A DNA stretch of 64,000 bases, from positions 682,001-746,000 of the forward strand of contig NZ_JAGXTP010000001.1 of NCBI RefSeq assembly GCF_018334155.1. The letters run 5' to 3'. The notes beneath the pieces are model-generated. The model did no database searches. It had not been told where the DNA came from and was given only the letters and a program-made list of their open reading frames with translations. Positions 40,812-64,000 of this stretch are shown piece after piece. Source of the DNA: Devosia litorisediminis. GTDB lineage: Bacteria; Pseudomonadota; Alphaproteobacteria; Rhizobiales; Devosiaceae. The position numbers were made by a program, and so were the translations under genes. Numbering within the stretch: the first letter of the stretch is position 1; each line of letters begins with the position of its first letter.

Positions 40812-40824
40812 GTCTGGAAGCAGA

Positions 40825-40850
40825 AACGCCGCCCTTGGGGGCGGCGTTTT
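40825..40850. terminator. Second, bidirectional terminator
   Basis: AACGCCGCCC/GGGCGGCGTT stem, TTTT after it and AAA before it on the plus strand. Confidence 0.75.
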
Positions 40851-40883
40851 GCGTTTGAAGGGGCTTTTCAGACTGCCGCCCAA

Positions 40884-40911
40884 ACAAAAGGCGCCCACCG
40901 GAGTGGACGCC
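40884..40911 (-). terminator. Terminator of the SH3/crystallin gene
   Basis: On the minus strand GGCGTCCAC pairs with GTGGGCGCC (one G-U) and is followed by TTTTGTTT, 27 bp after the stop at 40938. Confidence 0.78.
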
Positions 40912-40937
40912 CTTGCTGCATGGGATGTTGGAGGCGC

Positions 40938-41600
40938 TTAGCGGATACGCACCGAGACGATGTAATCATCGAAGTCACCCAGCGAGGAGGCGCTGGTGGC
41001 ATAGGTGCGGCAGTTGCGATAGCTGGTGTCAGAACATACCTGAACACTCAGACCATCGGGGTTCTCGATCGAGGAGATGCGGTCGGCCCAGCTGCCCAGA
41101 TTGCGGCTGCCCTGGCCTTCTTCGAGGCAGAAGCTCTGACCGCGATAGCGGCTGTATTCAAAAAAGCAGACTTCGCCATAGGTTGGTTCGACCACTACGG
41201 GGGGACGTTCAGGGCGCTGTGGCGTCTGGCTGCCGCCAACACCGAAATTGACGGTGGGGCCATCGGGGCCGATCTGGAAGCCGAACGAAATGCCGGGCTG
41301 GGTCGGATTGACCGTGCCGCCGCTGCCGGTGGTCAGGTAGTTGGCCGAAACCCAGCCATCGGGGCCGGATTTTTCAATGTAGCACCACGAGCCACGGCAC
41401 TGCTGCACATCGACGCGCTCGCCGCGGCGTGCGGTATCGACAACGCTGTAATTTGTACCAGGACCGGAGCGGACATTGACATTGGTGGTCACCGTGCCGG
41501 GCGCGGCATTGGCGGCGGGCAGGAAGACCACAAGGGCTGTCGTCGCGACGGCGACACCAGTGGCAATATTGAGCAGCATCTTGCGTGTATGTCGGTTCAT
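40938..41600 (-). CDS. Secreted protein with SH3 domain and beta/gamma-crystallin-like domain
   Basis: 220 residues from the ATG at 41600. Signal peptide about 1-33 (ending ANA), one SH3b domain (about 34-90) with VNVRSGPGTNYSVVDTARRG and GWVSANYL, a Gly/Pro-rich linker, then a C-terminal crystallin-type Greek-key domain (about 140-220) with VCFFEYSRYRGQSFCLEEG and LGSWADRISSIE. The SH3 half is a paralogue of that at 8151-8600. Periplasmic or surface; ligand unknown. Confidence 0.85.
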   Translation of the reverse strand: MNRHTRKMLLNIATGVAVATTALVVFLPAANAAPGTVTTNVNVRSGPGTNYSVVDTARRGERVDVQQCRGSWCYIEKSGPDGWVSANYLTTGSGGTVNPTQPGISFGFQIGPDGPTVNFGVGGSQTPQRPERPPVVVEPTYGEVCFFEYSRYRGQSFCLEEGQGSRNLGSWADRISSIENPDGLSVQVCSDTSYRNCRTYATSASSLGDFDDYIVSVRIR

Positions 41601-54938: not shown

Positions 54939-55519
54939 GTGGATATTCTCCATGTTATAGGCGTTGCCCAACGATAACGACCCAGTAGATGGGTGTCAAA
55001 TTCGCAGTTACTTTGTATGCTGCTGTAATATCCAAGAAAATTCGGCAATCAGTCTGTTGATTTGCACTGTCTTACGTCTGTGTTGGTGTGATTTTGTCGT
55101 GCTTGCTGATGTATTTGGTCTGAACGGGGATTGCGCGGAAGAAAAAGAATTCTCAAAACTGCCGCAAGGTGCGAAATTCGCCGGAATCCCGGATGATTGC
55201 GGCAGGTTTGTGCTGCGCGATCTGCGACGGGCTAGACTTGGCAGGTGACTTGGCAGGTGACTGGCGGGCATAATGGCGCTCCAAGAGGCGGTGAAGCGTG
55301 TTGCCGATGCATCACATGCCCGCAAAGGCTGCCACATTGTTGCCACGGACTTGCGAGTCGGCGCGAGACTGTGCAAAAAGCCCGCAGTCAATTTGGACCC
55401 GGTGCAACTCCGGGTGGCTCTTCCGGCCGCCAATCCGCCGGACATACCAGTAACTACGCTCACCCCGACAGCGAGCCCGCAACAGGGCTTTGCCGTATAG
55501 AGACGTCTGGACCGTATAT
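54939..55519. other. Upstream region of proX and the SulP gene, 581 bp without a credible gene
   Basis: Contains an AT-richer part (54990-55110), a tandem repeat ACTTGGCAGGTG (about 55236-55260) and a T-arm-like CCCGG-TGCAACT-CCGGG (about 55397-55415), not part of a recognisable tRNA. Open frames here have no family resemblance and unusual codon use. Both divergent promoters should be within it. Confidence 0.45.
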
Positions 55520-61088: not shown

Positions 61089-62207
61089 CTATTTGGAGCC
61101 CATGAAACTGAGGAAGCTGGTGGCTGAGCCACCCGCTTCGGCGAACATCTGGGTCAGCTTGGAGGTGGATTCGTAGCTGGCGACAGCGGCCTGATAGAAA
61201 TCATCGCTCCAGCCGGCGGCCTGGCGCTCCTCGACGCTCATTGAGGAGAACATCGAGATGATGTTCTGGCTGAAGGCGGTTGGGTCGCTGGAATTGGCGG
61301 CATTCTGGAACCCGGCCAACAGCGCCGCGCCGCTCTTGTCGCGCAGAATGGAGGCAGCCTCGTCGGTTTCGGCTGTGGTGAACTTGCTGTCGGTGTTCAG
61401 GGCGATGGCGGACAGTGTGCGGCTGGGAAAGCCGGACATGTCGATATAGCTGCCCATTGTGGTTTTGCTGTTGAAGGTGGGCGCCTTGCCCGCCGCGATG
61501 GCATCGGCATAGAGCGCGTCGAGTGACTGCCGCGCGCTGCTGGCGACATCGGCGATGTCCTGCTGCTGCATGGCCTGGCCCGTATTGACCAGCGCCAGAT
61601 AGAGCTGCACCGGATCCTGATCGCCGGTATCGGGCAGGGATTTGGGATCGCTCTGGAGCTGCTTGAGCCCCTCGGTGACGGCGGCGCGACCGGCAATCCA
61701 GTCTGCGCCAGCTTTCTCTTCGGACCCAAGGCTATCGAGATATTGCGCAGCCGCTTTGTACAGCGCGGTGAAATTGCCGGTGACCTGTGCCACGCCGGCC
61801 GGGCCAGACATGGCGTTTTCGAAGCGGCGCTGCATTTCAAGCCCGGCGGCGGCCTGGGCATCTGCATCGAAGCTGTCATCGCTGGCCATGGCGAACAGCT
61901 CGCGCTGGTTTAGGCCCGACAGGTCGATGGCCAGCTTGCCGTCTTCGAGGGGGGAGGTGCGTTCGGCCTCTTCAAGCAGACTGGCCAGCCTGGCGTGGGT
62001 GTCGGCCAGCACGGTGGCGAAGTCCTTGGTCGCCAGGGCGGCCTGGGCGGCGCTAGAGAGGGTTATGGCGGTGGCGGCCTGCTCGGTAACGCTGGGCACT
62101 ACAGACGCGCTGGTGGCTGCCGCGTAGGCGCTGCTGGCCGCATTGGACTGGCTGGTGGCCAGGTTGAGATAGCTGGTGCTGGGATAGGGGGCGCTGATGG
62201 CAACCAT
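61089..62207 (-). CDS. Hypothetical Ala/Ser-rich protein
   Basis: 372 residues from the ATG at 62207 (MVAISAPYPSTSYLNLATSQ). No signal peptide or membrane helix; mostly helical with many Ala, Ser, Gln and Asp. I recognise no domain. The composition recalls flagellar hook/filament-associated proteins of rhizobia, a weak analogy. It converges with aatA. Function not assigned. Confidence 0.65.
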   Translation of the reverse strand: MVAISAPYPSTSYLNLATSQSNAASSAYAAATSASVVPSVTEQAATAITLSSAAQAALATKDFATVLADTHARLASLLEEAERTSPLEDGKLAIDLSGLNQRELFAMASDDSFDADAQAAAGLEMQRRFENAMSGPAGVAQVTGNFTALYKAAAQYLDSLGSEEKAGADWIAGRAAVTEGLKQLQSDPKSLPDTGDQDPVQLYLALVNTGQAMQQQDIADVASSARQSLDALYADAIAAGKAPTFNSKTTMGSYIDMSGFPSRTLSAIALNTDSKFTTAETDEAASILRDKSGAALLAGFQNAANSSDPTAFSQNIISMFSSMSVEERQAAGWSDDFYQAAVASYESTSKLTQMFAEAGGSATSFLSFMGSK

Positions 62208-62347
62208 TCTGGGCTCCTGCAATCGGTATGCGGAACACCATGCAATCCACGTGCCGAAGAAAAGGCAATTGAATCAATTGCCTTTTGACAGCCATCGGCG
62301 CCAGGGCGGCAGAAACTGCCGGTTGGCGGGCAATAATGTCTGGAATG

Positions 62348-62378
62348 AAAAGGCCCCGCCCGAGGGGAGGGCAGGGCC
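62348..62378 (-). terminator. Terminator of candidate small RNA D
   Basis: Minus strand: GGCCCTGCCC pairs with GGGCGGGGCC (10 bp, one G-U, 7-base loop) and TTTTCATT follows. No minus-strand gene ends here. Confidence 0.8.
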
Positions 62379-62490
62379 CGACGGTCATCAGCCGAAGCGT
62401 CTGACCTTGGAGGTGCGGCACCACCACGATTGCCGCAATTCTTGTGGGCTCAATATCGGCTAGCGGGCCTTGCCGCACAAACGCGCAATG
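62348..62490 (-). ncRNA. Candidate small RNA D
   Basis: Minus-strand RNA of about 140 nt inferred from the terminator at 62348-62378 and from the upstream box CTGCCATGCAG (62498-62508) shared with RNAs A and B. It has no CCUCCUCCC motif, only one CACCTCC. It is the last unit of the tandem array. The exact 5' end is unknown. Confidence 0.4.
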
Positions 62491-62497
62491 GGAAGTG

Positions 62498-62508
62498 CTG
62501 CCATGCAG
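62498..62508 (-). promoter_or_regulatory. Upstream box of small RNA D
   Basis: CTGCCATGCAG, the core of the 15-base box that precedes RNAs A (62780-62794) and B (63348-63362). Four-base arms CTGC/GCAG make it a near-palindrome. Confidence 0.4.
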
Positions 62509-62540
62509 ATTGACGGACGGAGCAAGGGGGTGCACGGGAC

Positions 62541-62570
62541 AAAAAAAGGGCCCCAACCGAAGTTGGGGCC
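62541..62570 (-). terminator. Terminator of small RNA A
   Basis: GGCCCCAAC/GTTGGGGCC stem, TTCG tetraloop and seven T on the minus strand: a textbook intrinsic terminator. Confidence 0.92.
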
Positions 62571-62740
62571 AATGATAGGGCCGAAGCCAAATCTGAAGTA
62601 GGGCCCTGCGCAAGGGAGGAGGATATGCGCCGGACCAGTGAACTAAGCTGCGGGAGGAGGATGCAGCTTTCGTTCGTGTCGCCTAAACGCGGGTCCGAGG
62701 GAGGAGGATACGGAGCGGCGTCGCCAGCGACAGGTACACA
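62541..62740 (-). ncRNA. Cuckoo/CcsR-type small RNA A (three CCUCCUCCC motifs)
   Basis: Minus-strand RNA of about 200 nt. Three CCTCCTCCC motifs (62707-62699, 62660-62652, 62622-62614) each sit in a hairpin loop: TCCG/CGGA (62694-62714), AAGCTGC/GCAGCTT (62645-62669, perfect 7 bp) and GCGCA/TGCGC (62608-62630). It ends in the terminator at 62541-62570 (9-bp stem, TTCG loop, seven T). Loop-presented CCUCCUCCC, an anti-Shine-Dalgarno-like sequence, defines the cuckoo/CcsR RNAs of alphaproteobacteria. The 5' end is approximate. Confidence 0.8.
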
Positions 62741-62779
62741 TATAGATTTTGACCGACTGGTCAGCAATGCATAGGTCAG

Positions 62780-62794
62780 CATGTCTGCCATGCA
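62780..62794 (-). promoter_or_regulatory. Shared upstream box of small RNA A
   Basis: CATGTCTGCCATGCA (plus-strand reading), identical to the sequence at 63348-63362 before RNA B. Conservation outside the transcribed part suggests promoter or regulator binding. Confidence 0.5.
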
Positions 62795-62830
62795 TTCTGC
62801 ACAGCGACATGTTGTCAATCGCCGGGCGGC

Positions 62831-62998
62831 CTAGAACACGGCCAGATATTTGAGCAGCGAGATAATGCCGATCACGATCACCACGATCTGCAGGATCTGC
62901 CGCAGGCGAGCCTCGATAGGCAGGCGCTGGACGAGCCAGAGAATAAGAACGATCACCAGGAAGGTGATCAGAATGCCGACAAGAACAGATGTGCCCAC
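62831..62998 (-). CDS. Small two-helix membrane protein (Thivi_2564-like)
   Basis: 55 residues from a GTG at 62998 (GGAG 7 bases upstream). Two hydrophobic segments (about 4-22 and 35-54) around QRLPIEARLRQ. The layout and sequence recall the Thivi_2564 family of short membrane proteins of unknown role (memory). It lies inside the small-RNA array, between RNAs B and A; in Rhodobacter, CcsR RNAs are also cotranscribed with a small protein, though of another family. Confidence 0.65.
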   Translation of the reverse strand: MGTSVLVGILITFLVIVLILWLVQRLPIEARLRQILQIVVIVIGIISLLKYLAVF

Positions 62999-63113
62999 GA
63001 TAATCTCCAAAGCAGCGCTTGGTGCGCGAGCAGTAACGTGGCTGTGAACGCTTTGGTTGCATGGCGAGGCCGTGCCGGGCGCTGCATGCATTGGGCAATG
63101 CCGGGCGCATGGC

Positions 63114-63141
63114 AAAAAAAAGCCCCGTCCGAAGACGGGGT
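63114..63141 (-). terminator. Terminator of small RNA B
   Basis: ACCCCGTC/GACGGGG-type stem with TTCG loop and eight T on the minus strand. Confidence 0.92.
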
Positions 63142-63300
63142 CGATGATAGGGCCGAAGCCAAATCGAAAGTGGGGCAGAGGCAAGGGAGGAGGATATGCG
63201 CTCTGCCAGTGAACCTTGATCGAGGGAGGAGGATACGATCTCGGTCCGATGTCGCGATACTTGTTCCGAGGGAGGAGGATACGGAACGCGCCTCAGCGAC
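63114..63300 (-). ncRNA. Cuckoo/CcsR-type small RNA B (three CCUCCUCCC motifs)
   Basis: Minus-strand RNA of about 190 nt, clearly homologous to RNA A (shared stretch near 63150-63200). Three motifs at 63278-63270, 63232-63224 and 63193-63185 lie in hairpins GTTCCG/CGGAAC (63263-63287), GATCG/CGATC (63218-63240) and GCAGAG/CTCTGC (63175-63206). The stems differ from those of RNA A but still pair, while the loops are conserved: compensatory change that supports a real RNA. Ends at terminator 63114-63141. Confidence 0.82.
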
Positions 63301-63347
63301 GCCCTCCTTATGAACTCTACCGGATTGGTCGGCAATCCAGTCTGCGT

Positions 63348-63362
63348 CATGTCTGCCATGCA
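63348..63362 (-). promoter_or_regulatory. Shared upstream box of small RNA B
   Basis: CATGTCTGCCATGCA, the same 15 bases as at 62780-62794; flanking bases (TTTTGCACAG against TTCTGCACAG) are also similar. Confidence 0.5.
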
Positions 63363-63380
63363 GTTTTGCACAGGCTGGGC

Positions 63381-63420
63381 AAAAAAATGTGGCCCCGCTC
63401 GAGGGGAGAGCGGAGCCACA
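63381..63420 (-). terminator. Terminator of small RNA C
   Basis: TGTGGC-x-CCGCTC pairs with GAGCGG-x-GCCACA on the minus strand, followed by seven T. Confidence 0.9.
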
Positions 63421-63520
63421 TGTTTGCGGAAACGAATTCCCGCAAGGAGGGAACGCACGGGGCGCAAGGGAGGAGGAGAAGCGCCCGCGGTGCTGGGATC
63501 GATATAGGGGGATGGCGGCT
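63381..63520 (-). ncRNA. Cuckoo-type small RNA C (single CCUCCUCCC motif)
   Basis: Minus-strand RNA of about 140 nt. One CCTCCTCCC (63476-63468) in the loop of a perfect GGGCGC/GCGCCC hairpin (63460-63486), a further GTTCCCTCC, and a terminator at 63381-63420. It lacks the second and third motif hairpins of A and B and their upstream box, so it is a diverged or shortened relative. 5' end not determined. Confidence 0.65.
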
Positions 63521-63657
63521 GCTCAACAATCAGGCAGAGCGTATATTAGCTATGCATTGGCTGCATATTGAATTGGAAAAATCCAACCGAATCAATGCGA
63601 AAGCCCGATTTCCTGTGGCGGATCTTAGGGCGCGCTTTGTAAGCAGTGGCGCGCTTT

Positions 63658-64000
63658 TTAAGGCGTTTGCAGGTTCTCAATGGTTTCGGCAAGCGTGCCG
63701 AGATGCTCGATCCGGGCGTAGCGCGGCTGGTCGCGCGGTTCTTCCGCGCGCTCGTAGGACCAGGTCAGATCATGGGGCACATAGATGGCAAAGGCACCCG
63801 CAGCGAGAGCGGGCAGGATGTCGGAGCGCAGCGAATTGCCGACCATGACCGTGTGCTCGGGCCCCTCGGTGTGTTGGGCAAAAATTCGCGCATAGGTCTT
63901 GGGGCTCTTGTCCGAGACGATTTCGATGGCAGCGAAATAGTCGGCCAGACCGGAAGCCGCCAGCTTGCGCTCCTGATCGAACAGATCGCCCTTGGTCACC
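63658..64000 (-). CDS. HAD-family hydrolase (partial, C-terminal part)
   Basis: The gene runs off the right edge; 113 codons are visible, ending at 63658. VTKGDLFDQERKLAASGLAD, the motif III Lys in EIVSDKSPKTYARIF, and VMVGNSLRSDILPALAAG (motif IV, here with Asn/Asp and Ser) identify the haloacid-dehalogenase phosphatase fold. The nucleophile Asp motif lies outside the window. Substrate unknown. Confidence 0.85.
   Translation of the reverse strand, partial: VTKGDLFDQERKLAASGLADYFAAIEIVSDKSPKTYARIFAQHTEGPEHTVMVGNSLRSDILPALAAGAFAIYVPHDLTWSYERAEEPRDQPRYARIEHLGTLAETIENLQTP

Follow-up and report, generated by a model that had tools for sequence, protein, structure and literature searches.

The ar14/NfeR1 (cuckoo) small RNAs (sRNAs) are laid out as three hairpins, with CCUCCUCCC unpaired in each and with variable stems (PMC10746234), and members with two, three and four hairpins have been published (PMC3927594). 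Their three redundant anti-Shine-Dalgarno (aSD) motifs are described as acting at translation starts (PMC7143759, PMC10746234), and the predicted targets of NfeR1 are mostly transport genes (PMC7143759). In Sinorhizobium, LsrB is reported to activate both the adjacent AbcR1 and NfeR1, which is encoded elsewhere (PMC8844928, PMC10746234), and in Agrobacterium tumefaciens and S. meliloti the order trxB-vtlR/lsrB is followed downstream by abcR1/abcR2 (PMC7486931). The LsrB/VtlR consensus is given as GCAT-N3-TG-N3-T (PMC8844928, PMC7486931) and the LsrB motif of NfeR1 as TGCA-N6-GCAT (PMC10746234). In Rhodobacter sphaeroides, CcsR1-4 are described as co-transcribed with a DUF1127 gene from an RpoHI/RpoHII promoter and processed by RNase E (PMC10253847). 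Here we describe an array of four predicted aSD sRNAs (C, A, B and D) in 64,000 nucleotides of Devosia litorisediminis DNA (contig NZ_JAGXTP010000001.1, positions 682,001 to 746,000; hereafter, the window), next to a gene for a LysR-type regulator of the LsrB/VtlR kind.

The RNAs lie in the order C-A-B-D on the minus strand, and the array is probably a cluster of four trans-acting sRNA genes, each having a terminator and an upstream promoter element to itself; this grade applies jointly to the whole of our best explanation. An earlier note, made from the letters of the window alone, had described three RNAs with minus-strand motifs grouped as three, three and one. Seven exact copies of CCTCCTCCC were indeed counted on that strand (starts at 62614, 62652, 62699, 63185, 63224, 63270 and 63468), three each in A and B and one in C, whereas none of 100 shuffled windows reached seven (mean 0.99, maximum 5). 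The whole D. litorisediminis genome holds 19 copies versus 15 for the reversed pattern, the 12 outside the array being single and scattered; therefore, it is the clustering that is unusual and not the genome-wide number. RNA A (63113..63306, start approximate) has three hairpins with CCTCCTCCC at 63270-63278, 63224-63232 and 63185-63193; RNA B (62541..62738, start approximate) also has three, with CCTCCTCCC at 62699-62707, 62652-62660 and 62614-62622; and RNA C (63381..63501, ends approximate) has an aSD hairpin with CCTCCTCCC in its loop (63468-63476), a single-stranded GUUCCCUCC, a second hairpin and a terminator. A and B were delimited by folding, alignment and covariation, and C by these together with a covariance model, R3.

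In the predicted folds of A, B and C, all seven copies sit in hairpin loops, so the location claimed in the note stands and its count of six clean loops does not; the fold z values were -2.66 for A, -4.86 for B and -4.43 for C. Each of the three ends in a GC-rich hairpin and a U-run, bearing out the separate terminators that had been claimed (63122-63140 in A and 62549-62570 in B, followed in each by the U-run). The loops of A and B had been called identical, which is correct for the nine-mer and in hairpins 1 and 3, whereas the loop of hairpin 2 differs, with 13 nt in A and 11 nt in B. Between hairpin 3 and the terminator, A contains a conserved 22-mer, GATTTGGCTTCGGCCCTATCAT (63144..63165), that is also present in B (62572..62593), where its first part, GATTTGGCTTCGGCC, is invariant in the alignment; 33 stretches matching the 22-mer were found in contigs of named genomes, 30 of them titled Devosia. 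The note missed the fourth conserved RNA, D (62345..62449, ends approximate), although the terminator of D lies inside the region it described.

Of 397 genomes belonging to the order, 97 had the three-motif pattern and none had its reversed control; together with the shuffled windows, these numbers led us to reject a chance occurrence of the motifs. Among 47 loci compared (four of them duplicates), the exact-motif groups were arranged as 1-3-3 (C-A-B) in 18, as 3-3 in 20 and otherwise in 9. One locus, L063, holds a ten-motif array (1-3-3-3) with an extra three-hairpin copy. For the alignments, 39 candidates for A and 40 for B yielded 37 and 39 rows, one candidate being moved from A to B, and the second A copy of L063 and all rows from L027 and L028 being left out. 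Base pairs with changes on both sides numbered 26 in RNA A (37 sequences), compared to a shuffled mean of 13.5 and to 3-14 when the pairing partners were slid; 25 in RNA B (39 sequences), compared to 14.2 and 3-10; and 16 in RNA C, compared to 10.0 and 7-10. The measure of further pair types showed no excess over shuffles for RNA C. It is strongly supported that RNA structure is under selection in A and B. Covariation had been proposed in the note from the two paralogues, and the orthologues back it; motif hairpins are present in homologous regions of relatives, with 37 A and 39 B orthologues aligned.

The gene order in D. litorisediminis is greA-trxB-lsrB-HAD-array, lsrB itself lying past the end of the window (C1:746376-747266). 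The regulator was assigned to LsrB/VtlR from its gene order beside trxB and from a normally single match per genome, rather than from an alignment to a named LsrB sequence: of 397 genomes, 368 had a match to the LysR protein at E <= 1e-70, and all but three of these a single one among the matches listed. With places compared by eye, all 12 genomes of the genus, and all 8 other family genomes that bear the array (Devosia belongs to Devosiaceae in the NCBI taxonomy), had it at most 3.6 kb from lsrB and on the strand of lsrB, and a ninth other family genome (G093), which has no exact triple, has ar14 and R3 matches beside lsrB. Outside the family, none of 22 array-bearing genomes had the array and lsrB within 1 Mb on one contig among the matches listed; the two were on different contigs in 20 of these genomes, so they could yet be adjacent across contig ends. 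In one genome of family f6, G094, an ar14 match below threshold (36 bits) lies at 0.4 kb from lsrB.

Neither lsrB nor LsrB-type boxes figured in the earlier note. The box GCATGGCAGACAT is found upstream of A (63349..63361) and of B (62781..62793), TGCA-N6-GCAT upstream of C (63552..63565, some 70 nt ahead of the start placed by eye), and a box-like GCATGGCAGCACT, picked out by eye, upstream of D (62494..62506), all on the minus strand; a -10-like CTATAT was also seen by eye for B (62740-62745) and C (63502-63507). Of the 37 A copies, 34 have the form typical of the family, GCATRGCWGNYAT, as do 37 of the 39 B copies, at -82 to -86 relative to the first motif. The strict consensus occurs in 33 of the 37 A copies and 18 of the 39 B copies; among the single-motif groups, a set of 23 that includes duplicates and three non-C groups, 10 have it. 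Its background in these loci is 0.43 per kb for both strands. The counts for A and B omit copies lying too close to the end of a locus and four loci that duplicate named ones; L027, L028 and L032 were counted apart, and two of these three have the strict consensus. Genome-wide, GCATRGCWGNCAT had 13 matches versus 1 for the reversed control: two are the A and B boxes, one precedes a gene for a periplasmic-binding-protein-like product by about 140 nt, and by eye 7 of the remaining 10 fall within reading frames. The 150 nt preceding the first motif were also scanned in 14 triple arrays from families f27 and f44, and held no consensus box. Upstream of its box, the B promoter region also contains an inverted repeat, GACA-ACA-TGTC (62806..62816, minus strand). 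Its form GACA-N3-TG[TC]CGC is shared by 37 of the 39 B copies and by 1 of the 37 A copies, and it may be where a second regulator of B binds. The boxes, like the gene order, the conservation and the selection on structure, can be read from the DNA itself, and from them the array is probably activated by LsrB/VtlR.

The best reading of A and B from their sequences is as divergent ar14/NfeR1 (cuckoo) RNAs. As in the S. meliloti members (RF02344; SmelA075 and SmelA099), each has three hairpins with an unpaired CCUCCUCCC and highly variable stems, there is more than one copy per genome, and the promoter layout agrees as far as sequence goes, with a sigma-70-type -10 (by eye) and an upstream LsrB-type box, the strict consensus of which is absent from A and B of the window. 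The Devosia RNAs differ in being clustered beside lsrB, in carrying the extra conserved 22-mer before the terminator, and in scoring below the Rfam gathering cut-off in the window, while one family member is above it: the ar14 model matched at E <= 0.001 in all five family genomes searched, and G127 passed the cut-off (62.2 bits) in its lsrB-side array. In the test of single loci, 0 of 15 from the family (11 of them of the genus) passed, and four loci of f44 reached 84-92 bits. The note was right in seeing a resemblance to cuckoo/ar14 RNAs with an aSD motif, but C, which it also labelled cuckoo, is laid out like AbcR; and since three hairpins are the stated ar14 layout (PMC10746234), next to published members with two, three and four (PMC3927594), the remark that three per RNA is unusual was incorrect.

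RNA C was found in 38 distinct loci, including loci where the nine-mer is changed to CTCCTCCCTCCC; the search missed it in four loci, and one further locus has no three-motif group. The R3 model gave 111.4 bits on C of the window, a copy that is itself part of the R3 alignment. The predicted order of elements in C (aSD-loop hairpin, GUUCCCUCC, hairpin, terminator) is that of AbcR. RNA D, defined from 31 aligned Devosia rows and from models R1 and R3, consists of a hairpin, CACCTCCAAGGTC (most commonly CTCCTCCAAGGTC in the genus), a second hairpin and a terminator, and its aSD motif is degenerate or shortened. R1, the model of RNA D, has a poor structure (19 pairs, with hairpin 1 missed); it gave 98.2 bits in the window, where the copy is part of the R1 alignment, and R3 gave 38.9 bits. 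R1 scored 75-110 bits in all 12 genomes of the genus and 30-45 bits in seven of the nine others from the family; in 4 genomes outside the family it reached at most 34.2 bits. Five of those seven matches in other family genomes are at the C position, where six genomes of the genus also have a second match; therefore, C and D look related, and D is possibly AbcR-like in layout. No Rfam model matched D at its gathering score. D was absent from the search results in seven loci, several of which are cut short where the available DNA ends, and in one more locus without a three-motif group; the odd rows L027, L028, L043 and L056 were dropped before alignment.

In the mechanism that we propose by analogy with relatives, LsrB/VtlR would activate all four RNAs from a GCATRGCWGNYAT-like box that precedes the core promoter, and the RNAs would expose aSD sequences in loops or single strands, one in C, three in each of A and B and a shortened one in D. 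The exposed sequences would pair with the purine-rich ribosome-binding sites of many mRNAs, and this pairing would prevent the start of translation, the effect reported for the Sinorhizobium RNAs NfeR1 and AbcR. We regard it as likely that the array is an LsrB-controlled battery of aSD sRNAs, AbcR-like in C and D and NfeR1-like in A and B. LsrB activation, pairing at ribosome-binding sites and reduced translation would follow the pattern of those relatives, and we infer transcription, LsrB binding, base-pairing and targets alike. Perfect nine-base complements of the form GGGAGGAGG-N4-9-ATG numbered 85 in 25 Devosia genomes, compared to 18 for the reversed control; in D. litorisediminis they precede genes for a cupin protein and a DUF2189 membrane protein. 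Among 30 such sites that were fetched, 10 had no frame of at least 40 amino acids from the ATG and two were the same site.

Several observations weigh against this explanation. The scores behind the cuckoo/ar14 resemblance proposed in the earlier note are low: ar14 (RF02344) gave 33.5 bits on B (E 6e-4) and 31.6 bits on A, under the gathering cut-off of 58.8, and CcsR1 (RF02791) gave 31.8 bits on B (E 2.5e-5), under 65.3. About half of the B copies lack the strict LsrB consensus, and the A and B boxes of the window read AG where the consensus has TG, so that only the relaxed form is present there. The perfect complements are few per genome (1 to 9 in the 25 Devosia genomes, 2 in D. litorisediminis), and one gene alone among the 30 fetched sites, by eye an ABC transporter permease, recurs in two species; target prediction from these complements thus gave no conserved target set, and we claim none. 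Finally, the D. litorisediminis LsrB has one Cys (233), with V in the two other Cys columns of an f23 LsrB. The pair C144/C273 of the A. tumefaciens protein, for which a disulfide switch within the monomer has been proposed (PMC11975290), was not found in it, the published numbering not being aligned directly. Because of the single Cys, such a switch seems not to be available to the Devosia LsrB monomer; four of 13 aligned LsrB orthologues have no Cys at all, so the pair may not define the LsrB family.

Against these points, the other accounts of the locus must be weighed. Long open frames run on both strands across the region, as they might if repeats or coding sequence held the motif by accident, but the length differences between orthologues in the array are not multiples of three, the stem changes are compensatory, and the boxes stand at a fixed distance; the indels and the covariation led us to reject coding sequence, and that there are no RNA genes here is scarcely credible. 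The tandem RNAs with CCUCCUCCC loops, and the CcsR1 match to B, could also suit a CcsR/CIN1-type cluster (RF02791), in which the sRNAs would be cut from one stress-induced, RpoH-controlled precursor with a DUF1127 gene (CcaF1-CcsR1-4). This is improbable, since no DUF1127 gene was found by Pfam or NCBIfam among the neighbours scanned (greA, trxB, LysR, HAD, the Thivi_2564 protein, a 371-aa protein and an aminotransferase), whereas such genes do precede arrays of other families (L164 by Pfam, L002 by eye); moreover, the RNAs have separate terminators and upstream elements, and A and B have three hairpins, not two. For lack of a DUF1127 gene among the neighbours scanned and because of the separate terminators, we rejected the CcsR label that the note had attached to the RNAs. 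Somewhat less improbable, though still unlikely, is that the RNAs act as a sponge, the motifs titrating another RNA or a free SD-rich RNA and not mRNA start sites. The multiplicity of the motif agrees with this, and by eye a GGAGGG in the leader of A, in the window strain and three relatives, could pair with the loops; but relatives with the same loops are reported to repress translation starts (PMC7143759, PMC10746234), and the leader has GGAGGG in just 4 of 37 A rows (by eye), a count on which we also rejected it as a conserved cis-inhibitor.

Our preferred reading of the array as an LsrB-controlled battery leaves the descent of C and D to be weighed separately. Like AbcR1/AbcR2 (ar15, RF02345), the array lies 3' of trxB-lsrB with an LsrB-type box, and RNA C has the aSD-loop hairpin, single-stranded GUUCCC, second hairpin and terminator of AbcR. 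Unlike in AbcR, a HAD gene separates lsrB from C, A and B have no AbcR counterpart, C has GUUCCCUCC where AbcR has GUUCCCCUCUGGA, and the Rfam model does not match it. In all three genomes of f23 (presumably Rhizobiaceae) that were compared (G136, G105 and G069), AbcR (RF02345) is 0.5-0.8 kb from lsrB on the same strand with an LsrB consensus box upstream, and of 20 more stretches downstream of lsrB, taken from other families and genera, 8 hold an RNA with the AbcR signature GTTCCCCTCTGGA, preceded by a CCTCCC-bearing hairpin. AbcR-like RNAs with GTTCCCCTCTGGA were seen beside lsrB at L133, L134, L136, L137, L139, L141, L142 and L148; in L137, a single case, the stem of the AbcR-type hairpin is identical to that of hairpin 1 in A (GTTCCG/CGGAAC), and the loops of the two are nearly so. 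The alternative is that C and D are no relatives of AbcR and reached a common generic plan (aSD hairpin, second hairpin, terminator) by convergence. It is favoured by the lack of any RF02345 match in 61 family genomes under strict filters (with laxer filters, D. litorisediminis was again negative, while 6 of 12 genomes matched), and by the signature GTTCCCCTCTGGA, which occurs in 2 of the 61, neither with AbcR-like surroundings by eye. The Rfam ar15 model had no match in G015 (f15) or G041 (f41), one genome tried for each, whereas another genome of each family shows the signature, so the model may be too narrow. R3, built solely from RNA C copies of the window's family, was applied to 29 loci and detected 7 of 18 AbcR genes at 22.9-39.6 bits, compared to 17.6 bits for its best score outside the array in the window (40815-40956, minus strand), and it matches beside lsrB in 21 of 21 family genomes, the place that C shares with AbcR; these results argue against convergence. 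However, the other 11 AbcR genes were weak or unmatched, R3 also fits the 3' halves of A and B, and it matches places in 46 of 397 genomes outside the family at up to 36.1 bits, one of these places, in G079, adjoining lsrB; its E-values are no proof of homology. In the reverse search, the AbcR model R2, with a poor structure (3 pairs) and almost sequence-only, found RNA C at best with E 0.0077, in one of 34 sources, and did not match C of the window. From the weak reverse search and the R3 scores outside the family, we consider orthology of RNA C with AbcR and a convergent origin of C and D about evenly balanced.

Three protein-coding features adjoin the RNAs on the minus strand. The 3' part of the HAD-type hydrolase gene (63658..64000) stands between lsrB and RNA C, and a gene for a 55-aa Thivi_2564 family membrane protein (62831..62998; NCBIfam NF041949, 50.2 bits, cut-off 33) between A and B; by eye, a similar coding sequence precedes B in other Devosia (L038, L052 and L057). 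Downstream of the array, a 371-aa protein (61089-62204) had no Pfam or NCBIfam match at E 0.001. Elsewhere in the window, a sul1 RNA is present at 55392-55447 on the plus strand (Rfam RF03058, 71.2 bits). In two loci of genus g99 (family f10), L164 and L165, eight exact motifs and a near-exact ninth are packed into about 330 nt as tandem hairpins; a DUF1127 gene lies just upstream of the L164 array (Pfam), and apparently also of that of L165, the upstream DNA of the two being nearly identical by eye.

The aSD RNAs themselves are of a known kind, whereas their clustering beside one regulator, and their probable control by it, is an arrangement of which we found no description. The literature searched gave no account of such RNAs clustered beside lsrB, a 2015 paper on the cuckoo family, known through citations, being one that may list related loci; and among papers on Devosia with sRNA, CcsR, cuckoo, AbcR, LsrB, VtlR or NfeR1, none concerned these RNAs as judged by title or the start of the abstract. 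One tentative scenario, which we consider possible but doubtful, is that AbcR (ar15) and NfeR1/cuckoo (ar14) derive from one aSD hairpin module at the lsrB locus, and that Devosiaceae keep both in a single LsrB regulon, C and D being of AbcR type and A and B hairpin-multiplied descendants that were later dispersed in rhizobia.

For the description of these families, the locus shows most of the Devosia clade to be missed by the Rfam models for ar14 and ar15, and it adds RNA D, a conserved RNA that gave no Rfam match at gathering score. For the biology of Devosiaceae, it would place both aSD RNA types in one lsrB-side array across a bacterial family, and the array would offer a natural test of LsrB-controlled translation repression, graded by motif count, outside symbionts and pathogens.

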